A program made the position numbers and the translations under genes. A stretch of 35,801 bases of DNA from Acidimicrobiales bacterium (GTDB lineage Bacteria; Actinomycetota; Acidimicrobiia; Acidimicrobiales; QHCF01), in NCBI GenBank assembly GCA_003244275.1, contig QHCF01000101.1:1-35801 (forward strand), read 5' to 3'. How positions within the stretch are numbered: the stretch's first letter is position 1; every line of letters begins with the position of its first letter. The notes under the pieces are model-generated. The model ran no database searches. It saw only the letters and a program-made list of their open reading frames with translations, and was not told where the DNA came from. This document shows, piece after piece, positions 1 to 16,418 of this stretch.

Positions 1-22
1 AGGCTCAGGCGAATTATCGAGG

Positions 23-1399
23 TCAAGGATCCCTCGTGGGTGCCTGACGCCTCCGCGACCTTCGTACGGGCCGCCTCCTCAAGCTCGAAGAGGCCGGGTA
101 CGGCGCACTGGGTTTGACGGGCTGTTCAGACAGCAGCGCGGCCGAGCCAGCTACCATGCTAGGGCTCGACGCCTTGCCCCGGACGTGCAGAGCGCGGCGA
201 CTCAGACGGCGACGGAGTAGCAGTGACGCTACAAGCCCCATGGCACTGTAGGCAATGACGCTGGCCAGAGCTGCACCGGAGATACCGTGCGCCGGCACTA
301 GGACCACGTCGCCTAACACGGTCAGCACCACGCCAACTGCTACCGCCTTGGCGGACTCACCAACGCGACCCATACCGGAAAGGGACGCACTATCGAGATA
401 ATAGAATGTGAGACCGAATTCAGCCAGCAGCAGCAGACGCAAGGAAGGAACGGCCGCGGCGTAGCGCTGACCAAATACCACGCGAACTGAGAGAGGAGCG
501 GTGACGATAGCGACACCAACAGCAGCCGTCATTAGCCCCACGCACAGGAGACGACCACGCCGAAAGCTGCCGGGCGTCGCTGACCCAGATGCTAGTCCAT
601 AGAAGATGGGCTGGCCCATAGCAGCAGGAAGAATTCGTAGCATCTCCGGAAATGTGGCTGCCACCGAATAGATCCCGACTGCCGCTGGCGTAAGATAAAG
701 CACCACCAGGTAGCGATCGAGCTTAAAAGCAGCCATCTGGCCGAGGGTAACGGCGATTCCCGGAGGCCCCCGACGCAACAGACGGACCCACTGGGCCCAG
801 TGGAACAACGGCCGAATACCCGCCCGCGCCTGGCGCAAAGCGACGAGACACAGAAGGCTCTCTAACAAGTAGCCGACAGTTAACGCGCCAATAAAAATAG
901 GAACGCTTCTTGCCCCCCGAGAAGAAGCCAGGGCTACGATCAACAACTGAACAATACTGCTGGCCGCATCGATCACGGCCGCACGGACGGTGAAGCCGTA
1001 AGCATTTATCGCCTCTACCAGGAGAAGTCCCCCTAGGAAGGATCCGCCGAAGACGCCGAAGAGCCCCAGGCCCAAAAGGGACAAATGAACGTGTAGCGCC
1101 GGTGCAACGATAGTCACCGATACTACGCAAACACCAGCCTGCAGAAGGATCAACGCTAGCGAGAGCCCTAGATAATCACCACACCGGATCGGATCGATCT
1201 CGGCTACCAACTCGAGACGTGCGGCGATATTCACCCCGAGACCGCAGATCAGTAGGGCGAAGGTCGCCAGAGTGATGAGGAGGACAAAGACTCCTCGGCC
1301 CTGAGGCCCCAGCTGGCGCGCCGTCACGATAACAATGCCGGCGGAGGCAGCACTCGATAGTACCTTCCATAGCGTTATATGGGCCGCAACGCCGACCAT
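23..1399 (-). CDS. Polysaccharide flippase (Wzx/MATE-like), 458 aa
   Basis: A multi-pass membrane protein that fits the polysaccharide-transport (Wzx/RfbX, MVF/MATE) group. These proteins move lipid-linked sugar units across the cytoplasmic membrane. The translation is almost wholly hydrophobic segments split by short basic loops, with about 12-14 likely helices. The N-terminus carries the family-like pattern of a first helix followed by TARQLGPQGRGVF. The C-terminus is a basic Arg-rich cytoplasmic tail. I chose the ATG at 1399 because AAGGA sits 4 bases before it; an upstream in-frame TTG at 1444 would add 15 unconserved residues. It lies downstream of the carbamoyltransferase in the same direction, with a 155-base gap. 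Family assignment is firm; the substrate cannot be told from sequence. Confidence 0.85.
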   Translation of the reverse strand: MVGVAAHITLWKVLSSAASAGIVIVTARQLGPQGRGVFVLLITLATFALLICGLGVNIAARLELVAEIDPIRCGDYLGLSLALILLQAGVCVVSVTIVAPALHVHLSLLGLGLFGVFGGSFLGGLLLVEAINAYGFTVRAAVIDAASSIVQLLIVALASSRGARSVPIFIGALTVGYLLESLLCLVALRQARAGIRPLFHWAQWVRLLRRGPPGIAVTLGQMAAFKLDRYLVVLYLTPAAVGIYSVAATFPEMLRILPAAMGQPIFYGLASGSATPGSFRRGRLLCVGLMTAAVGVAIVTAPLSVRVVFGQRYAAAVPSLRLLLLAEFGLTFYYLDSASLSGMGRVGESAKAVAVGVVLTVLGDVVLVPAHGISGAALASVIAYSAMGLVASLLLRRRLSRRALHVRGKASSPSMVAGSAALLSEQPVKPSAPYPASSSLRRRPVRRSRRRQAPTRDP

Positions 1400-1554
1400 G
1401 CTATCCTTGGGCGAGGAATGCGGCCGCGTTCGGTGCCGGGTCAAATTGGCTCAGCGCTTCGATATGAGACTAAACCTATGGAGGGTCAAGCTAACAACTG
1501 CCTCGAGGTGACCCCTAGTGGGTACATCGATATATTGGCCAGTGGACAAGAAGG

Positions 1555-3444
1555 TCACGGACGTACCACCAGGTGGTCTTCGAGGACCATGGCGTCAAAA
1601 TTAGCCTTACTGAAGGTTGTTATTGCGTCTGCCGGAGTACAGACAATCGGCTCCTGCACATTGAACGACGTGTTGAGGAGCATAGGGACACCCGTGATGA
1701 GTTTGAACTGGTGGATTAGTTCCCAAAAGCGGGGATTGGTCTCACGGCTTACAGTTTGCGGGCGAGCACTACCGTCAACATGGACCACAGCCGGAATCAG
1801 TGGCCGCTGGTCGGCCGCAACATCGAGCACGGTGACCATGAAGGGATCGTGGTGAGGATGCCCGAACACCTGCGCACTGGCCTCCTCCAGTAGGGATGGC
1901 GCCAAGGGCCTAAACCACTCGCGCAGTTTCACCTTGTGATTCAGCAACTCGCGCATGTCAGCTCGTCTCGGGTCCGCTAGAAAGCTGCGGTTTCCCAAGG
2001 CCCGAGGACCGAACTCGGCTCGACCCTGAAACCAGCCAACAATCGCACCAGCGGCAATCATTTTTGCCACACGGGGTAACATCTCGTCGTCGGGAAGTGT
2101 CTTGAAGGGAAGGTGTGCTGCCTCCAATTCCCGTGCGCAGGCTGCAGAACTGAAGGCGGGGCCAAAGTAGGCGTGGCGCATGTGATACCGACGGGGCCTT
2201 CCGAGCAAGCCGTGGTATGTGAGGAACGCCGCTCCCAGAGAACAACCAGCGTCACCGGCCACAGGCTGAATGAATACTCGCTTAAACGGGGACTCAGCAA
2301 TTATCCGCCCATTCATCACCGAGTTGAATGCCACACCACCTGCCAAGCACAGGTTTTCCTCTGCTGTTCGCTCGTGAAGGTTCCGAAGCAAGTGGAGCAC
2401 GATATCTTCTAACAACAGTTGAGCGCTCGCGGCAATGTTTTGGAACCGGTCGGTGATCTCGTCACCTGGTCGTCGGGCTGGTCCGAGCGCCTGAAGAATC
2501 TTGTCACTGAACTGATATCGCTTGGCCAAATGATGATCAAGTACCCGAATGTTGACCCGGTACGCGTCAGGTCCATCCACTCTCAGGACACGGCGCGATA
2601 GGAAGTCGTAGTATTCAGGTTCGCCGTAGGCAGCCAGCCCCATGACCTTCCATTCATCGCCGGCAAACATGTCGAATCCCAGGAAGTTGGTTACAGCGGA
2701 GTAGAACTGGCCGAGAGAGTTCGGAAGCTTAATCTTTTTAATCGGCTTGATCTGACTCCCGGCCCCGAGTGCCATCATGGTCGTCGTTGCTTCGCCCGTC
2801 CCGTCCAGGGTGAGGATGGCGGCCCGCTCGAAAGGCGACACGAAGAAGGCACTAGCCGCATGGCACGGATGGTGCTCCAAGTAGTGGAAGCGAAAGTCAC
2901 TCGGCCCAAAACGCTCACGCATAAGCCGTGGATAGTGCAGCATCCCCAGGTAGCTGTTACTGACCTGAGACACCCCGCGGTCGACGCGAGCGGCGAACAT
3001 GGCGGGCGAGATAGCAAGTGACGTCAGGGCTTGCCAAGCCTTATGGACGATGATCCATGGTTTCCAGTACAGGGCCACATGATCCACGTCTTTCATCTCG
3101 ATAGCGCCCTCTGCCAGGCAGTACTCCACTGCCCGGTATGGAAAGCCAGAATGGTGCTTCGTGCGCGAGAACCGTTCTTCCTCCACAGCGGCCACGACCT
3201 CGCCGTCGCGGATGAGGGTGGCGGCGGCATCGCCAAGGGTCGTCAGACCAAGGATGTACAAGAAGCCTCCTCTCGTCGGGACCGGTGAACCATCTGTGCG
3301 GCCGAGGAAGTTGTCGAGACCAAGTAGGCGCCAGGTGCCCTCGGCCAGGGCGTCACCTAAGCTGAGCAAGCGTACCTGACTCCCGTCACTTGTGGAGTAG
3401 GTGGAGGCTGTAGCGACTCCGGCGCCGGTCTCGTTTGAGAGCAC
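1555..3444 (-). CDS. Carbamoyltransferase, NodU/CmcH family
   Basis: Transfers a carbamoyl group from carbamoyl phosphate, through a carbamoyl-adenylate, to a hydroxyl of a sugar or natural product (family knowledge). The N-terminal domain shows EEERFSRTKHHSGFP near residues 87-101, then HHPCHAASAFF and LTLDGTGE near 190-216, part of the metal/ATP site. The C-terminal YrdC-like/carbamoyltransferase part shows GRAEFGPRALGNRS and LLNTSFN. The start is uncertain. The conserved fold begins at YILGLTTLGD (about residue 63). A TTG at 3261 is preceded by a near-perfect ribosome site, GAGAGGAGG, and would give 568 aa, a usual family length. The upstream codons are G/C-biased and read like protein (LLGLDNFLGRTDG), so a start at TTG 3369 or GTG 3444 stays possible. 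It is divergent from the glycosyltransferase at 3628; no clear promoter was seen in the spacer. Likely decorates the glycan made by neighbouring enzymes. Confidence 0.9.
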   Translation of the reverse strand: MLSNETGAGVATASTYSTSDGSQVRLLSLGDALAEGTWRLLGLDNFLGRTDGSPVPTRGGFLYILGLTTLGDAAATLIRDGEVVAAVEEERFSRTKHHSGFPYRAVEYCLAEGAIEMKDVDHVALYWKPWIIVHKAWQALTSLAISPAMFAARVDRGVSQVSNSYLGMLHYPRLMRERFGPSDFRFHYLEHHPCHAASAFFVSPFERAAILTLDGTGEATTTMMALGAGSQIKPIKKIKLPNSLGQFYSAVTNFLGFDMFAGDEWKVMGLAAYGEPEYYDFLSRRVLRVDGPDAYRVNIRVLDHHLAKRYQFSDKILQALGPARRPGDEITDRFQNIAASAQLLLEDIVLHLLRNLHERTAEENLCLAGGVAFNSVMNGRIIAESPFKRVFIQPVAGDAGCSLGAAFLTYHGLLGRPRRYHMRHAYFGPAFSSAACARELEAAHLPFKTLPDDEMLPRVAKMIAAGAIVGWFQGRAEFGPRALGNRSFLADPRRADMRELLNHKVKLREWFRPLAPSLLEEASAQVFGHPHHDPFMVTVLDVAADQRPLIPAVVHVDGSARPQTVSRETNPRFWELIHQFKLITGVPMLLNTSFNVQEPIVCTPADAITTFSKANFDAMVLEDHLVVRP

Positions 3445-3627
3445 GGGGAGGCACGGTCTTCGATCGCACGGAATCGTTTGTCGCCTGGGCGGAACCGCGC
3501 CACGATGTGCCCTTCTCGCTTAGGGGTAGGCTCACCATGTGGCCGCCCCATCTTTTGCCGCTCGCGCGTCCCGTTGTCATTCTGATAGCTGCCCGACTGC
3601 CTTCGTGGCCATGGGAGCGGTCGCATT

Positions 3628-4737
3628 GTGACACATGTTGTCCTCGACACGAGGTCCCTCCGCCAGCAACGGGACGGCCTTGCGAACTATATCGAAGAGC
3701 TGGTGCCCAGGATCGTGTCGGCAGCGCCAGATCTTGAGTTCACTATCCTTGCGAATCCGTCGCAGATGACGTTTTGGACGTCGGCCGCACCAAATAGTCG
3801 CGTGCTCCCCTGTGACTGTCGTCCGATGTGGCCAGCGCAACATTGGCGCATCCCCCTCTTACTTCGGCGCTTGTCCCCTGACCTTTACTTTTACCCCGTT
3901 CATGATCCCCCACTTTTCTGCCCTCAACCGTTTATTTTCGTTATACAAGACGTTATCTCGCACGAGATTCGTCCATATTATGATAACCTCGACCGTCTAA
4001 AGACGGCATATACCCGTGTAGTGACAGCCGCAGGCCTCCGCCGCGCTTCCATGGTCCTTTGCAGTTCACATGCAACCAAGACGGCAGTAACCAGTGTTTT
4101 TGGGCATCGCTTGGGACACAAACTTCGGGTCGTACCGCTCGGCACCACGCCAAGTCATTCTCGCCTTGATGCTCAGATCCTTCCTTCCCATCTTCTCTAT
4201 GTTGGGACTGATCTACCTCAGAAAAACCTCGATCGCCTAATCAGCGGATACGCTAAGGCACAACGCCAAGCGAAGGGCCGCTTACCTAACCTCGAACTGG
4301 TCGGCGCGCTCCGTCACCAAGCCGACCTCCAAGAGCGCGCCGGGCGCGAAGGAGTCGGTGACAGCGTCCAGTTTCGAGGCCATGTCTCGCGGCCCGACCT
4401 TGAGGCAATGTACCAATCTGCCATCGCGCTCGTGTTCCCCTCCGTGGCTGAGGGGTTTGGTCTACCCATCTTGGAGGCCATGAGCCGCTCCGTGGCTGTC
4501 GTGACCAGTAACCGATCTGCCTGCGCAGAGGTAGCCGATACCGCCGCGCTTCTGGTCGATCCCTATAGTACAGATTCCATTGCCAATGGGCTTCTCACGA
4601 TCTCCACCGACGCCGCTCTCCGCCAAGATCTTGTCAGGCGCGGACACTCCCGAGTGTTGGCATTTTCATGGGACCAGTGCGCGGCCACAACGCTCGACGT
4701 AATCCGGGAAGCGCTACGAGGAACTGATGGCTGCTAA
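3628..4737 (+). CDS. Glycosyltransferase family 4 (GT-B), 369 aa
   Basis: A retaining GT-B glycosyltransferase that would add a nucleotide-activated sugar to a growing lipid-linked or surface glycan in the cytoplasm. The C-terminal donor-binding half is clear: YVGTDLPQKNL at 191-201 opens the second Rossmann domain and EGFGLPILEAM at 275-285 is the GT4 E-x7-E type motif. The N-terminal half holds VLDTRSLRQQRDGLANY, where GT4 proteins have their glycine-rich acceptor loop. The start is GTG 3628 with GGGAG about 10 bases upstream; an ATG 6 bases into the frame shift is not in frame. It overlaps the FkbM gene by 11 bases, so the two are probably co-translated. Codon use is less GC-rich than in the genes after 6.7 kb. 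Donor and acceptor are unknown. Confidence 0.9.
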   Translation: MTHVVLDTRSLRQQRDGLANYIEELVPRIVSAAPDLEFTILANPSQMTFWTSAAPNSRVLPCDCRPMWPAQHWRIPLLLRRLSPDLYFYPVHDPPLFCPQPFIFVIQDVISHEIRPYYDNLDRLKTAYTRVVTAAGLRRASMVLCSSHATKTAVTSVFGHRLGHKLRVVPLGTTPSHSRLDAQILPSHLLYVGTDLPQKNLDRLISGYAKAQRQAKGRLPNLELVGALRHQADLQERAGREGVGDSVQFRGHVSRPDLEAMYQSAIALVFPSVAEGFGLPILEAMSRSVAVVTSNRSACAEVADTAALLVDPYSTDSIANGLLTISTDAALRQDLVRRGHSRVLAFSWDQCAATTLDVIREALRGTDGC

Positions 4738-5566
4738 TTCGATTGCCCGGCGTGCGTTGAAATATATGCTCGCGGCCGCGCTCGCGGATCGCCATTATGC
4801 CTACCTACAGAGTGTCGCCATGGCGTGGGACATTCGTCGTGGGAAACTCTCGGAACCAGAGATATCATTGGTACCGATGGCCGTCCAGAACGGAGACGCA
4901 GTGATCGATATTGGCGCCAATTACGGACTCTACACTCATCATCTCTCGCGAGCGGTCGGAAGCACCGGCCGAGTATATGCATTCGAGCCAATTCCCTTTA
5001 CTAACAGCGTTCTTCGTCTAGTCGGACGGCTCCTTGGGTTTCGGAATGTCGAGGTATTTGAGAAGGGCTGCAGCAGTGAAACCAGTCGGCAAGCGTTCAC
5101 AGTGCCCGTTCAGGTCTCTGGAGCAATAGCCGCCGGCCTCGCGCATCTCAGTGCCGAAGGCGACGAGGATGCTAAACTAGTCTGTTCGTCTCTTAACAAT
5201 GCGACGGCGGTGATTTGCGAGGTTGTCGCTCTGGACGACTTCATGCCACCGCTAAGGGAGATCTCGTTCATTAAGTGTGATATTGAGGGTGCTGAATTGC
5301 TCGCCTTTCGGGGTTGTGAGACGATGATCGCTCGACATCATCCAACCGTACTCAGCGAGGTGTATCGTGAATATCTCGGCCGCTTCCACTTTAAATTGGA
5401 AGATTTGACCGGTTTTTTTATCGATAGGGGTTATCGTCTGTTCACTTACGATGGGGCGTCACAGGGTCTGATCGAGACGCCTCCGGAGGCGGTTGTCGAC
5501 GGTAATGTCCTGTTCATTCATCCAGACCGCCAACATCGCTTTCATCGGGCCTTGAAGTTGACGTGA
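4727..5566 (+). CDS. FkbM-family SAM-dependent methyltransferase, 279 aa
   Basis: Methylates a hydroxyl group, in clusters like this most often on a sugar of a surface glycan. The SAM-binding motif I is VIDIGANYGLYT (residues 59-70), the acidic motif II is VYAFEPIP (83-90), and the FkbM signature KCDIEGAE lies at 183-190. These three in this order are diagnostic for the family. There is no signal peptide or membrane segment, so it should act in the cytoplasm. The ATG at 4727 is preceded by GAGGA at 4-5 bases and lies inside the end of the glycosyltransferase gene (11-base overlap), which supports translational coupling. Some stretches are near 53% GC by hand count (line 5041-5100), well below the dcw genes. 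Confidence 0.9.
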   Translation: MAANSIARRALKYMLAAALADRHYAYLQSVAMAWDIRRGKLSEPEISLVPMAVQNGDAVIDIGANYGLYTHHLSRAVGSTGRVYAFEPIPFTNSVLRLVGRLLGFRNVEVFEKGCSSETSRQAFTVPVQVSGAIAAGLAHLSAEGDEDAKLVCSSLNNATAVICEVVALDDFMPPLREISFIKCDIEGAELLAFRGCETMIARHHPTVLSEVYREYLGRFHFKLEDLTGFFIDRGYRLFTYDGASQGLIETPPEAVVDGNVLFIHPDRQHRFHRALKLT

Positions 5567-5702
5567 CATTACCGACGGCCGCGTCACCGGTACGCCCAGT
5601 GTGGTCCTACTGCGACGACACGGATGGCATTTTTGCCCGCAACGCAGTAGCGAGTTACTCTCGTCATATTCGCGTGGCTGGGCCCGCGACTGGGGAGGCA
5701 CG

Positions 5703-6698
5703 GTGACAGCTTCATATTTGGTGACTGGGGGCGCCGGATTTATCGGGTCCCACCTGACCGACGCTCTACTGGCCCGTGGTGACCGGGTAGTTGCTCTCGA
5801 CTCCCTCTCGACCGGGCGACTTGCCAATCTTGATCACGCAGGTGGGCATCCGCAGTGCCGTTTCGTCCAGGGATCGGTGCTCGATGAGCTGGTGGTCGAC
5901 GAGCTCGTCCACGAGTGCGATGTTGTGGTCCACTTGGCGGCGGCGGTGGGGGTCAAGCTCATTGTCGAGCATCCTCTCCGTTCGCTCACCACGAATATTC
6001 GCGGCTCCGAGATCATGATCGAGGCGGCCCACCGTTATCGGCGGAAGATCCTGCTAGCCAGTACATCGGAGATTTATGGAAGAAACTCAGCTGAATCGCT
6101 CCACGAAGGGTCTGACCGAATCCTAGGTTCACCGACGGTGTCCCGCTGGGCATACTCTACGGCCAAAGCACTTGACGAAACTCTGGCCTATGCCTACCAC
6201 AAGGAACGGGGCCTACCCACGGTTGTTGTGCGCCTCTTCAACACCGTGGGTCCCCGACAGAGCGCCGCTTATGGGATGGTCATCCCGCGCCTGGCGCGAC
6301 AGGCCGTGGCCGGTGGTGCTCTCACGGTATATGGAGATGGAAACCAGCGGCGGTGCTTTTGCCACGTCGGGGATGTTGTGCGAGGCCTGCTCGGGGTGCT
6401 CGACCATCCGAAGGCGGTCGGGGATGTGTTCAACTTGGGTTCCGCTGAGGAAATATCCATCATGGACCTTGCCCATCGAATCGTCGCGCGGGCGGAGAGT
6501 TCCGCCAAGGTTGAGCTCATTCCCTATGAACAGGCCTACGAGCCAGGGTTTGAGGACATGTACAGGCGGCGGCCTGACACCACCAAGGTCCGCAACCTTA
6601 TCGGTTGGGCCCCGACACGAACTTTGGATGACATCCTCGACGAGGTGATCGCCGAGGCTCGTCTCGAAATGGCCCTTGGAGCCGACGCTCCGACCTGA
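5703..6698 (+). CDS. NAD-dependent sugar epimerase/dehydratase, 331 aa
   Basis: An extended short-chain dehydrogenase acting on a nucleotide sugar (UDP-glucose epimerase, UDP-glucuronate decarboxylase or dTDP-sugar type). The NAD-binding loop is GGAGFIG at residues 9-15, followed by the acidic residue of ALDSLSTG at 31-38. The catalytic set is TSEIYG (121-126) and Y151-S-T-A-K155. The C-terminal half has RLFNTVGPRQ and an R-rich donor-recognition region. I chose the GTG at 5703 because GGGGAGG lies 4 bases upstream and the protein then opens directly on the Rossmann fold; an ATG at 5601 would add 34 residues with no family match. It is 136 bases after the FkbM gene. It would supply an activated sugar to the glycosyltransferases. 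The exact reaction is not decided by the visible motifs. Confidence 0.9.
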   Translation: MTASYLVTGGAGFIGSHLTDALLARGDRVVALDSLSTGRLANLDHAGGHPQCRFVQGSVLDELVVDELVHECDVVVHLAAAVGVKLIVEHPLRSLTTNIRGSEIMIEAAHRYRRKILLASTSEIYGRNSAESLHEGSDRILGSPTVSRWAYSTAKALDETLAYAYHKERGLPTVVVRLFNTVGPRQSAAYGMVIPRLARQAVAGGALTVYGDGNQRRCFCHVGDVVRGLLGVLDHPKAVGDVFNLGSAEEISIMDLAHRIVARAESSAKVELIPYEQAYEPGFEDMYRRRPDTTKVRNLIGWAPTRTLDDILDEVIAEARLEMALGADAPT

Positions 6699-12532: not shown

Positions 12533-14671
12533 TCAGGTGCCGCGGCCGCTCCGGCCGCTGGGGCGCCTTGACACCAGCCGAGGACCCGTTCCGACCGGAG
12601 GACGCTTGGTCGGTGGGATCGCTGTGCCCCGCCCGGCGGGTGTCCGGCTCGAACCCGCACCGGCCGATCCCGCCCCGGCCGATCCCGCCCCGGCCGATCC
12701 CGCCCCGGCCGCCTGCCTGGTCGCCGTACCGGGGGCCTTGCGGGGGCGCGCCCCGGTCGCCTTTGATGTCCCGGCTGCACTGGCCTTGGTGGCCCGAGAC
12801 TTGACTGACGCGGTAGTCCTGGAACCGCTTGGCTTGGTCGCTCGCGGCGCCCTCGCCTTGGCCGGCTTGGCCCTGGCCTCCTCCTGCGCCCTGACGGGAC
12901 CGGCGGAGGCTCCGTTGGCTGAGCCGACGATGGTATTGATCCGCTTGAGAACTGTTGTCCTCGCCGCCCCCGCCTGTTCCCGACTGCGTACGACCTCGAG
13001 CTCTTCGGGATCGAGCTGGCGAAGCAGAGGCAGAATCTCGGCGACCCGCAGATCGTCGTAGTCGGCAATGGGGAACATGTCGTCGTCCGCGTAGGCCTCG
13101 GGACTGGCATCGAACTCAGGGGTGGACATCCCGGAGAGCATCGGCTCGGTGGCCCGTAGCTCATCCAGCCGCCGAAGTATCGTCGATCGTCCCCGGGTGG
13201 CCAACTCTCGCTGACGGACCACGTCGTACTCGTCGGGCACCAGCTCCTCCAACAACGGCATTATCTCTGACACCATCAGCTCGTCGTAGTCGGCGATCGG
13301 GAAGACGGCGTCGGGGTCGGCATTGGCATACGGCGTCGATGCCCCTTGCGACCATGCCTCCTCCTCGGCGGGCCAAGGTGCCTCCTCCTCGGCGGACCTG
13401 CGCCTCGAGCCGAAGAACGACCTCCGTACGGGTACCGGCTCGGCCTGCGCCGCCGGTTGCGGTTGCGGCTCCGACTCGAGCTCCTGCTCGGCTACATCGC
13501 TGTCCTCCCACGCGGGTTCCATCGGCTGGGAGATCGCCGGAGGTATGAAGATCCGACCACGCCGGGAGCCCACTGCCGGGACGACCCCCTCCTGGTCGGC
13601 GGTCTCAACCTGGTCGACCTCGTTGCCCCCCCCAGCCTCATCGGCCGCCTTGGCCTGGTCGGTCGAGTCACGCTGGTCGGCCATATCAGCTCGGGACGGG
13701 ACCGCGGTTCTGCGCCTCGATCCCAACAGCGACCGGCGCACCGGCTCGCGCATCGATTCCTGCCCCGGTCCGGTCTCGACCACCGACTCCGCCTCTACCG
13801 CCAGCTCGGCCTCCAATACCGGCTCGGACTCAGGTCCGCTGATGCTGGGTCGGGCTGAGGTTTCCTCGGCGACGGCCCCGCGCCTTGATCCCAACAGCGA
13901 CCTTCGCACCGGCACCGTCACCGGCTCCGGCAGTGGCTCAGACTCCGCGTCGGCCTGGTCGGCCTCGGCTGAGATCTCCTCGGCAACCGTCCTGCGCCTC
14001 GATCCCAGCAGGGACCGGCGTGCTGGCACCGGCTCCGGCAGTGGCTCGGACTCCGCGCCGGCCTGCGCCGGCTCGGGCGGCATCTCCTCGGCCGCGGCCC
14101 TCCGCCTCGATCCCAACCGCGACCGGCGCTCCGGCACCGGCTCCGGCAGTGGCTCGAGCTCCGCAGCGGCCGGGCCCGACTCGGGCCCCCCCTGGTCTGG
14201 CGCCCCTCTGCGCCCAGACGCTAGGTACGACCGCCGCACTGGCACCACCGCCGGCAGCGGTTCCAGCTCGCTCTGCGGTGCCGCCTCTGGGACATCGGGC
14301 TCGTCGATCTCGGCGCCCGCCCCGGGCCGCGCCTTGCGTCCGGCGCCACGAAGGACCCTGGGGGTCCTGCGGCCGGCGGGCGGGCGGACGGCCTCTACCA
14401 ACTGGGTGGGCCGATTGTCCTCGACCATGTCGGCCTCGGCCACGGTGTCGGTCTCCGACCCTGCCGTCTCTCGACGTCGCCGTCCCACGGATGGGGCCGT
14501 CGCCCCCCGGTCCCGGACCCGATTGAGGGCGGTAAACACGACCAGCAGGACCACACAAATCGCGCTGGCCCCGATAGAGACGTAGTCCAGTGCCAGCGAG
14601 CGCTCGACGAATCCAACCACCAGGGTGGCGGCGGCAGCCAACAACAGCCCAATAGTCAGAATCAGCAACAA
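12533..14671 (-). CDS. Unrecognised membrane-anchored Arg-motif repeat protein, 712 aa
   Basis: I do not recognise the whole protein. Two hydrophobic segments (about residues 1-21 and 31-49) form a hairpin anchor. A long acidic, Pro/Glu/Ala-rich, probably disordered region follows. It carries six copies of an RRS-x2-GSRRR motif at about 145, 181, 217, 255, 311 and 415, most preceded by EPLPEPVP. Two related helical modules come next (457-508 and 533-584), each beginning FPIADYD-[ED]-L and ending in a short basic helix. They resemble short YD-x-L helical modules seen in other actinobacterial proteins. The last 115 residues are Ala/Lys/Arg/Thr-rich, histone-H1-like, with an AGAGS tandem repeat. 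The start is TTG 14671, with GGTGG upstream. It follows divIVA by 130 bases in the same direction. Both anchor and basic tail should be cytoplasmic, so linking membrane to DNA or to division proteins is possible, but this is inference. Confidence 0.75.
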   Translation of the reverse strand: MLLILTIGLLLAAAATLVVGFVERSLALDYVSIGASAICVVLLVVFTALNRVRDRGATAPSVGRRRRETAGSETDTVAEADMVEDNRPTQLVEAVRPPAGRRTPRVLRGAGRKARPGAGAEIDEPDVPEAAPQSELEPLPAVVPVRRSYLASGRRGAPDQGGPESGPAAAELEPLPEPVPERRSRLGSRRRAAAEEMPPEPAQAGAESEPLPEPVPARRSLLGSRRRTVAEEISAEADQADAESEPLPEPVTVPVRRSLLGSRRGAVAEETSARPSISGPESEPVLEAELAVEAESVVETGPGQESMREPVRRSLLGSRRRTAVPSRADMADQRDSTDQAKAADEAGGGNEVDQVETADQEGVVPAVGSRRGRIFIPPAISQPMEPAWEDSDVAEQELESEPQPQPAAQAEPVPVRRSFFGSRRRSAEEEAPWPAEEEAWSQGASTPYANADPDAVFPIADYDELMVSEIMPLLEELVPDEYDVVRQRELATRGRSTILRRLDELRATEPMLSGMSTPEFDASPEAYADDDMFPIADYDDLRVAEILPLLRQLDPEELEVVRSREQAGAARTTVLKRINTIVGSANGASAGPVRAQEEARAKPAKARAPRATKPSGSRTTASVKSRATKASAAGTSKATGARPRKAPGTATRQAAGAGSAGAGSAGAGSAGAGSSRTPAGRGTAIPPTKRPPVGTGPRLVSRRPSGRSGRGT
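12661..12711 (-). repeat. 15-base tandem repeat, about 3.4 copies
   Basis: The unit on the plus strand is CGGCCGATCCCGCCC: three identical copies, then a partial one. It encodes the AGAGS-type repeat near the C-terminus of the 712-residue protein (about residues 655-672) and keeps the frame. Confidence 0.9.
13397..14239 (-). repeat. Six dispersed RRSxxGSRRR protein repeats
   Basis: Six copies of the basic motif are spread over this coding region. The middle ones sit in a larger unit of about 36-38 residues (acidic stretch, EPLPEPVP, RRSLLGSRRR, EE). DNA copies are similar but not identical, so the expansion is old or selected at protein level. Confidence 0.85.
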
Positions 14672-14801: not shown

Positions 14802-15485
14802 TCAGATGGAGCTTGACCGGTCCGCATCGGGGCGTTGGGCCGGAGCCGTACCGGGAGGGGCCGGGCGCGAGTTCGGGTGACGCATGTCGGGCCGCGGCGA
14901 CAATGAGGGCAGGTTCTCCTCGACCCAGCGCAGGGCCTCGGCAAAGCCGGACTGCACCCGCGTCCTCTCAGCTACCAGGTAACGCTGGAGGTTGTCCACG
15001 TCTTCCTGGAGCGCCGCCCGGGTCCCGACCAGGCGGTCTATGTCGGAGCGCATCTCAGTCGTTGCCTCCTCGGTCATCCTGCGAACGTGCTCCTCGGCCT
15101 GGGCCACCATGGCCCCGGCGTCAGCCCGTGCCCGGTTCATGGCCTCAGTTGCCTGTTGGTGAGCCTCACTGACCGCCAGGTCGGCTGTGCGTTGCGCCAG
15201 CAGCAGCGTCCGGGTGATGGAATGATCGTCTACCTCGGGCTCGACTGGGCGAGGAGGCGGCTGGAAGCGTGTATCGGAGAGGCGCGACTGGGCCTGGGAC
15301 AGCTCGGTCTCGGCCTGGGCCGCCCGGGCGGCCGTCTCCCTTACCCGGTCCTGCAGCAGCTCGATACCGGCGGCCACTCGCTCGAGGAACTCGTCGACGT
15401 CGTCCTTGTTGTAGCCGCGCAGCTCGAGTCGGAACTCGATGTCCCGAAGAGTCGCCGAAGATACCTCCATAGCCATGACGCTCAT
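14802..15485 (-). CDS. divIVA: DivIVA/Wag31-like septum and pole organiser, 227 aa
   Basis: A coiled-coil protein that recognises curved membrane at poles and septa and steers wall growth in actinobacteria. The N-terminal DivIVA signature is TLRDIEFRLELRGYNKDDVD at about residues 12-31, followed by EFLERV. Heptad-rich coiled coil runs from about 40 to 190, interrupted by a Pro-rich linker (about 72-84). The tail is Pro/Ser-rich. I chose ATG 15485 because GGAG lies 6 bases upstream; the frame extends further only through the repeat element in front of the gene. It follows yggT by 77 bases, which are mostly repeat copies. Gene order sepF-yggT-divIVA is typical of Gram-positive dcw regions, which supports the call. 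Confidence 0.93.
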   Translation of the reverse strand: MSVMAMEVSSATLRDIEFRLELRGYNKDDVDEFLERVAAGIELLQDRVRETAARAAQAETELSQAQSRLSDTRFQPPPRPVEPEVDDHSITRTLLLAQRTADLAVSEAHQQATEAMNRARADAGAMVAQAEEHVRRMTEEATTEMRSDIDRLVGTRAALQEDVDNLQRYLVAERTRVQSGFAEALRWVEENLPSLSPRPDMRHPNSRPAPPGTAPAQRPDADRSSSI

Positions 15486-15494
15486 CCTATCTCC

Positions 15495-15526
15495 ACACTG
15501 CTCCGCAGGGGCAAAGGTGCTTCGCA
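15495..15526 (-). repeat. 32-base spacer repeat, copy A (yggT-divIVA gap)
   Basis: It matches copy B at 15828-15859 at all but one base (T/C at one position). Each copy contains two tiny hairpins (CTGC-TCC-GCAG and TGC-TTC-GCA). It ends 9 bases before the divIVA ATG. Confidence 0.9.
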
Positions 15527-15551
15527 ACACTGCTCCGCAGAGGCAATTGCG
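15527..15551 (-). repeat. Partial, diverged copy of the spacer repeat
   Basis: It is joined head-to-tail to copy A. The first 14 bases match exactly (ACACTGCTCCGCAG), then it diverges, keeping GGCAA and ending in TTGCG. With copy A it fills most of the 77 bases between yggT and divIVA. Confidence 0.75.
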
Positions 15552-15562
15552 TAAAACTCATC

Positions 15563-15826
15563 TCAGCGGGCGAACAGGGGGATGAGCACCACCTGGATAA
15601 CGATCAGGACGATCAGAGGGGACAGGTCGAGGCCGACGCCGCCAACTCCGATGGGAGGCAGGATCCTGCGTAGTGGAGCCAACACCGGCTCGGTGAGCTT
15701 GTTGAGGAGCTGCGCCACCCTGGAAAGCGCCGAGCCTGGCGTCGTCGGAAAATAGCTCAGGATGATCCGGGCGAAGATGATGACGACATAGGCCTCCAGC
15801 ACATAGCGAATGATGTTCGAGATCAA
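15563..15826 (-). CDS. yggT: YggT-family membrane protein, 87 aa
   Basis: A small two-helix membrane protein, commonly next to sepF and divIVA; its biochemical role is not settled. The first helix is about residues 3-22 (IIRYVLEAYVVIIFARIILS), a loop carries the YFPTTPGSALSRVAQLLNKLTEP-type YggT signature, LAPLRRILPP follows, and the second helix is near the C-terminus (LIVLIVIQVVLIPLF). I chose TTG 15826 because it gives the normal family start and length, and CGGAG lies 7 bases upstream. That ribosome site is part of the 32-base repeat filling the sepF-yggT gap. A longer reading frame up to 15988 runs through the repeat into sepF and is rejected. Confidence 0.9.
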   Translation of the reverse strand: MISNIIRYVLEAYVVIIFARIILSYFPTTPGSALSRVAQLLNKLTEPVLAPLRRILPPIGVGGVGLDLSPLIVLIVIQVVLIPLFAR

Positions 15827-15827
15827 G

Positions 15828-15859
15828 ACACTGCTCCGCAGGGGCAAAGGCGCTTCGCA
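15828..15859 (-). repeat. 32-base spacer repeat, copy B (sepF-yggT gap)
   Basis: This copy is almost the whole 34-base gap between the sepF stop (15861) and the yggT start (15826). Read on the coding strand it carries the CGGAG used as the yggT ribosome site. Confidence 0.9.
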
Positions 15860-15860
15860 C

Positions 15861-16418
15861 TCAAGGTCGGTAAAGGCCCCGTTCCTGGAGGCGTTGACGC
15901 TCCTCAGGCGACACCTCGACGTTGGTTGGCGTGAGGAGGAACACGTCCTCGGCCACCTTGTCCATGGCGCCGCCCAGGGCATAGGCAACTCCGCTGCAGA
16001 AGTCGATCATTCGCCGGGCCAGGTCCCTGTCCGCCACCTGGAGGTTGACGATCACCGGCTGCTCGATCTTGAGGCGATCCCCGATCTCCTGGGCATCGCC
16101 AAACCGCTCGGGTGCGACCACATGAACCCGGGCGCCGCGAGTCGGCACGATCTGGCGCACCACCGCTCCCCGTGTCGTCATCACCCCGGTAGCCGGTTGA
16201 TCTTCGCGAGGAAGGGCCCGGATGGGAGTCATGGTCTGCTCCTCCACCGGAGCCGGGAATCCCTGCACCGATCCGCCCGGGGCCGGCCCGAACGAACGCG
16301 CCGCGCCGCGCCCTGCCACCGGCGGCGCGGGCTCTTCGTAGTGCTGGTAGTCGTCATATTCTTCGTCGTTCATGTCGAGGCCAAGGTAGACCATCGCTCG
16401 ACGAATGAAAGATGCCAT
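15861..16418 (-). CDS. sepF: SepF, FtsZ membrane anchor, 185 aa
   Basis: Tethers FtsZ filaments to the membrane; it is the main anchor where ftsA is absent, as here. The N-terminal MASFIRRAMVYLGL is the amphipathic membrane-binding helix, followed by an acidic Tyr-rich linker (DEEYDDYQHYEEP). The folded SepF domain covers about residues 80-170, with VVNL-type core VIVNLQVADRDLARRMIDF and CSGVAYALGG, then VFLLTPTNVEVS. Length is normal. The start ATG 16418 has AGGAGG 5 bases upstream. It sits 21 bases after yggS, and the gap to yggT is a repeat copy. Confidence 0.95.
   Translation of the reverse strand: MASFIRRAMVYLGLDMNDEEYDDYQHYEEPAPPVAGRGAARSFGPAPGGSVQGFPAPVEEQTMTPIRALPREDQPATGVMTTRGAVVRQIVPTRGARVHVVAPERFGDAQEIGDRLKIEQPVIVNLQVADRDLARRMIDFCSGVAYALGGAMDKVAEDVFLLTPTNVEVSPEERQRLQERGLYRP

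Follow-up and report, generated by a model that had tools for sequence, protein, structure and literature searches.

In a few model genera of actinobacteria, the position of the chromosome is known to be linked to DivIVA-directed polar growth through ParB/ParA and DivIVA and, in Mycobacterium tuberculosis, through Rv3852. Rv3852 is a membrane-anchored nucleoid protein that contacts Wag31 (DivIVA) directly, and Wag31 depends on it for localisation at the pole (PMC8233713). A comparable layout is found in MLDS of Rhodococcus jostii, a protein of the lipid-droplet monolayer with an N-terminal lipid-surface anchor and a Lys-rich DNA-binding C-terminus; its Lys/Ala-rich PAKKA tail is a sequence-nonspecific DNA binder and recruits DNA to the lipid surface (PMC5504291).

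The stretch of DNA analysed here (35,801 nucleotides from an Acidimicrobiales bacterium, referred to as the window) encodes a 712-residue protein with a membrane hairpin, two helical modules (termed YDxL modules) and a basic tail. With Rv3852 (NF050153) the likeness lies in the combination of a Lys/Ala-rich DNA-binding part with a membrane anchor, and by analogy the activity that we propose below would have a functional precedent there. The anchor of Rv3852, however, is a single C-terminal helix, YDxL modules are lacking, and the protein has been reported as confined to M. tuberculosis and close relatives. The window protein did not match NF050153; weak matches were obtained in the K-rich stretch of two relatives (L011 with 19.1 and L013 with 15.1 bits, cut-off 100). 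The likeness to MLDS is one of layout and no homology is claimed. In the lipid-droplet protein Rv1109c (NF033649) a three-helix YDxL module forms the C-terminus, in some cases preceded by a K-rich stretch, but the protein has another N-terminus and only one module and is encoded outside the divIVA cluster; the window protein reached 7.9 bits against a cut-off of 110. Histone H1-like proteins (Pfam HC2, NF038053) share the Lys/Ala/Pro repeat composition of the tail with several family members. This low-complexity similarity concerns the tail only, and the window protein matched neither HC2 nor NF038053. A Mycobacterium locus (L208) encodes a related hairpin (E about 2e-6) directly after divIVA/wag31, but its short acidic C-terminus has neither modules nor a basic tail. 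Among the papers of the library searched, none deals with a hairpin protein encoded after divIVA.

The gene after divIVA and the parts of its product

The gene is a single open frame of 712 residues on the minus strand (14671..12533), located directly downstream of sepF, yggT and divIVA. No ATG or GTG is present in frame upstream of the TTG start. Since the relatives begin at the matching point of the hairpin (with GTG or ATG, mostly GTG), the TTG start is credible. GC content by codon position is of the coding type up to about residue 600, and the pattern of the tail codons is biased by their Ala/Gly/Ser/Arg composition. The frame is a genuine gene. In the gap that separates it from divIVA a consensus scan detected neither a promoter nor a terminator; such a scan is uninformative for this phylum.

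Features of the locus. All are on the minus strand; residues refer to the 712-residue protein.
Feature	Position	Strand	Remarks
Gene for the hairpin/module/tail protein	12533..14671	minus	712 aa, TTG start at 14671, TGA stop
N-terminal membrane hairpin	14513..14671	minus	residues 1-53; hydropathy and conserved hairpin alignment
Charged low-complexity linker	13307..14506	minus	residues 56-455
RRSxxGSRR motifs, this protein only	13400..14236	minus	residues 146 (degenerate), 182, 218, 256, 312, 416
108-bp (36-codon) tandem repeat, 2.9 copies	13863-14184	minus	yields the regular RRSxxGSRRR spacing
YDxL module 1	13148..13303	minus	residues 457-508, three helices; alignments and AlphaFold
YDxL module 2	12923..13075	minus	residues 533-583, three helices; alignments and AlphaFold
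Basic Ala/Arg/Lys/Gly/Ser tail	12536..12916	minus	residues 586-712, net +23
divIVA	14802..15530	minus	Pfam DivIVA 2.1e-15; start approximate; directly upstream, co-directional, 130-bp gap
yggT	15563..15856	minus	Pfam YGGT 3.4e-20
sepF	15861..16418	minus	Pfam SepF 6.6e-25

The protein consists, in this order, of a two-helix hairpin, a charged linker, two modules and a basic tail. The sequence-only reading had described this anatomy correctly as far as the hairpin, the two related modules and the basic tail are concerned; the number and spacing of its motifs had to be corrected (see below). The hairpin comprises two hydrophobic segments followed by basic residues, and from the basic stretch after the second helix the positive-inside rule predicts a cytoplasmic C-terminus. 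The linker carries a net charge of -29 (residues 120-455) and the module region one of -14 (residues 456-585). Linker length is lineage-specific, the linkers of the relatives being far shorter. The tail had been called histone-like and rich in Lys, Ala and Arg. Its net charge is +23; it is rich in Ala, Gly, Arg, Ser and Thr with 8 Lys only, and it has no family match. A 15-bp tandem repeat is located inside the tail (12644-12711).

The linker had been reported to contain six regularly spaced basic motifs. We found five exact copies of RRSxxGSRR and one degenerate copy (RRSYLASGRRG), with distances of 36, 36, 38, 56 and 104 residues, and the spacing is thus even in the first four motifs only. 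A lone GSRRG is present at residue 368 of the linker. Five exact copies compare with a mean of 0.00005 in a composition shuffle, an excess that is largely due to the tandem duplication. The motif is absent from every relative compared. A role as docking or phosphorylation sites, which had been suggested for these motifs, was rejected for both reasons: no relative carries them and a 108-bp tandem duplication largely accounts for them. Therefore, we read them as a recent lineage-specific spacer expansion and not as conserved sites.

The first part of the window (1-6000) has a G+C content of 57-61%, compared with 66-74% downstream. By eye, the open reading frames in this part look like genes for a flippase, a carbamoyltransferase, a glycosyltransferase, an FkbM-type methyltransferase and an epimerase. 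The region resembles a surface-polysaccharide cluster and was possibly acquired.

Relatives of the hairpin and their C-termini

A search with the module region gave matches in 44 of 59 genomes of the order, and the matching proteins are of two kinds. Proteins of the first kind (L003-L018) are about 310-515 amino acids long and have a window-type N-terminal hairpin and usually two modules; one module was scored in L008 and four are present in L011. Proteins of the second kind are smaller, have a single module and differ at the N-terminus; the window's own genome encodes one of them (L128, contig 103). Most members of the first kind end in a Lys/Ala/Pro H1-like tail; in L006, L010 and L017 this tail is missing or very short. 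The hairpin of L006 is closest to that of the window (52% identity), and the best module matches to the window are those of L006 and L010. Both proteins lack the tail, and the tail of the window protein is therefore not common to its nearest sampled relatives. A hairpin profile that includes the window protein matches it at E 8e-17.

All 15 hairpin-and-module members that could be tested (L112-L126, loci fetched with enough flanking sequence) are located directly downstream in the sepF-yggT-divIVA cluster and on the same strand. One of them (L124, 4229-6002) directly follows yggT in a cluster without divIVA. Among Acidimicrobiia sepF loci, chosen by SepF similarity, 8 of 68 testable ones contain the hairpin gene, with two more weaker or contig-edge cases. 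The hairpin gene is thus kept in place, yet it is not universal.

Across the phylum, a hairpin and module profile matched 73 of 247 genomes, about two dozen of them by the hairpin end only. We fetched 20 of these hairpin-only matches irrespective of their position (L162-L181) and left out L167, which lies at a contig edge. In all 19 testable loci the gene is located in the sepF/divIVA cluster (divIVA was identified by eye in L166, L173, L174 and L181). The idea that the gene keeps its place beside divIVA was thereby borne out for module-bearing and hairpin-only relatives. It lies on the same strand as divIVA with a gap of -4 to 249 bp, as would fit a single transcription unit. When sepF loci were sampled family by family, 6 of about 39 contained the hairpin gene, one being the Mycobacterium locus. 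The N-terminus of the DivIVA encoded there is nearly identical to that of M. tuberculosis Wag31, and by its position the hairpin gene of this type is probably Rv2144c. In the literature searched, Rv2144c is mentioned only once, as an unknown transmembrane protein in a listing of exported proteins without assigned function (PMC5405230).

Hairpin and position are constant in these relatives, whereas the C-terminus varies: it may be an H1-like tail, a helix-hairpin-helix domain, both, or a Cys/His motif. HHH_5 scored above the Pfam cut-off at the C-terminus of five proteins (L162, L163, L166, L174, L175), and L166 in addition matched histone H1-like HC2 above the curated cut-off. K-rich tails are found in L164 and L168 and are less strong in L170, L192 and L196. 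Six proteins (L165, L167, L169, L173, L177, L192) have a Cys/His-rich end of the type H...C...C..C, for which Pfam holds no family; we presume that it is perhaps like Ada-type zinc domains. In L165, L169, L173 and L177 this end contains the conserved motif FH...C.YA...(A)..GY.PC..CKP. Acidic, Pro-rich or near-absent C-termini were found in L171, L176, L181, L187, L208 and L220. DNA-binding-type ends, as predicted from these matches and compositions, are thus recurrent and not general. Two tandem hairpin genes follow sepF and a YggT-like ORF in L192 (1399-2583), with no divIVA recognised between; the first has a basic K/A/P/R-rich tail and the second a basic tail and the C-terminal Cys/His motif.

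The proteins range from about 115 to 745 amino acids. Because one hairpin recurs at one locus in very divergent genomes, they most probably form one family with a functional tie to the divIVA cluster, the shared locus being the strongest evidence for this. The family is conserved and apparently undescribed.

The YDxL modules

The two modules of about 52 residues are 53% identical to each other, the related segments starting at residues 458 and 534. In alignments of the family, each module shows Pro-Ile, Tyr, Leu, Val, Glu and Arg at invariant positions. AlphaFold models each as three helices with pLDDT values of 92-97 and gives no fixed arrangement between them. Identities between first modules, between second modules and between first and second modules are all 49-52%, which would neither favour nor oppose an ancient duplication as their origin.

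Neither the full-length protein nor the separate modules matched Pfam, NCBIfam or PDB at the respective cut-offs, in agreement with the earlier statement that no described family with this arrangement was known. Weak Pfam matches, among them HalOD1 (0.0093) and, with the hairpin alone, DUF7027 (0.0075), were below the cut-off, and the Pfam scan found no DivIVA domain inside the protein. Foldseek searches with models of the tandem and of a single module gave no PDB match at E ≤ 0.001. A profile of 55 modules had no sequence match in PDB; the best candidate, a PP2A scaffold, was a partial match with an E value of 0.026 and was rejected. A GTDB contig scan using the module region yielded no confirmed match.

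Two related helical modules had been noted before; both are present, and they are not unique to the window protein. Modules of the single-module proteins L130 and L131 align with those of the window and match the C-terminus of NF033649 (3.2e-5 and 6e-6, respectively). The YDxL module is thus a widespread, unnamed actinobacterial unit. Single-module paralogues of this type (L128, 3590-4150, and L129-L131) have VYAPVG... as their N-terminus and carry the YDxL module at the C-terminal end. Weak matches to NF033649 (Rv1109c) were obtained with some of them, and the paralogues are possibly lipid-droplet or membrane-surface proteins. In L011 (locus L120, 3982-5526) the last of the four modules follows a K-rich stretch. 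The end of this protein, K-rich stretch included, matches NF033649 with 84 bits (1.3e-23), which suggests a fusion of both module-bearing protein types. As the modules are neutral to acidic, we infer that they may bind proteins.

Possible roles at the divIVA locus

We propose that the protein is a membrane anchor which is made together with DivIVA and keeps DNA close to the membrane at poles or septa; we give this reading about an even chance. The hairpin would hold the protein in the membrane, and its long C-terminal part would extend into the cytoplasm. The tail, or in other members the helix-hairpin-helix domain, would bind DNA without sequence specificity, and the YDxL modules and/or the hairpin would contact another protein, with DivIVA or one of its partners as the likeliest candidate. 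In this way the nucleoid would be kept close to the membrane at the sites of DivIVA assembly, the pole or septum. The RRSxxGSRRR linker of the window species would be a spacer enlarged by tandem duplication.

This membrane-DNA tether is supported by the fixed synteny in the 15 module-bearing and 19 hairpin-only testable loci and by the presence of HHH_5 and HC2 at the same locus, together with the K-rich tails in most members of the order. The confidently modelled folding of the modules as separate three-helix domains is a further point in its favour, and MLDS and Rv3852 each make one half of the proposal plausible by analogy. A link to division or to chromosome-membrane tethering had been suggested from the gene's position; it gains strength from the same-locus relatives with Pfam HHH domains or an HC2 match. 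Against the tether stand the very short or absent tails of L006, L010 and L017, the lack of the gene after divIVA in most sampled Acidimicrobiia loci and phylum families, and the modules, which have no PDB match by fold or sequence. Since several hairpin relatives have acidic, Pro-rich or near-absent ends, not every member can function by binding DNA. The cluster without divIVA in L124 means that DivIVA is not certain as the partner.

Only the hairpin and the locus are universal, several members including the mycobacterial one have acidic or short C-termini, and the modules are not DNA-binding-like in charge. These points argue for a polar or septal membrane scaffold of DivIVA/SepF, in which hairpin and modules would bind division or cell-wall proteins and linker and tail would act electrostatically (in a condensate or by contact with acidic lipid or RNA) and not as a DNA tether. 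We consider such a scaffold possible but rather unlikely, as the recurrent and apparently independent gain of HHH_5 and HC2 and the conserved K/A tails are difficult to account for if no nucleic acid is involved. The module matches to the C-terminus of NF033649, and the manner in which MLDS ties DNA to droplets via its Lys-rich tail (PMC5504291), would fit a protein of lipid droplets or storage granules, with the hairpin in the lipid monolayer, an Rv1109c-type module and a tail linking droplets to DNA. However, in these genomes Rv1109c has closer counterparts in the separate single-module paralogues L128-L131 with their different N-terminus, the window protein scores far below the NF033649 cut-off, and the fixed sepF-divIVA location points to division or polar growth, which makes a droplet protein improbable. 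Patchy presence and the wide range in length could also indicate a fast-diverging, dispensable membrane gene that lies beside divIVA without a functional link. This is equally hard to accept, because the position is kept in all testable matches despite great sequence divergence, and hairpin and modules are under clear sequence constraint.

The tether reading can be extended to the phylum. Actinomycetota would then possess an undescribed family of membrane-chromosome tethers encoded beside DivIVA, with a fixed hairpin and gene position and a DNA-binding end that was replaced on repeated occasions (H1-like tail, helix-hairpin-helix, Cys/His motif, or YDxL modules plus tail), and Rv2144c would be the mycobacterial member; we hold this extension tentatively and lean slightly against it. 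The gene beside divIVA, with its hairpin and its exchangeable ends of DNA-binding type, is a concrete candidate, easy to delete, for a link between chromosome and DivIVA-directed polar growth in many lineages. Mycobacterium is among them, and its gene after wag31 appears to be uncharacterised.
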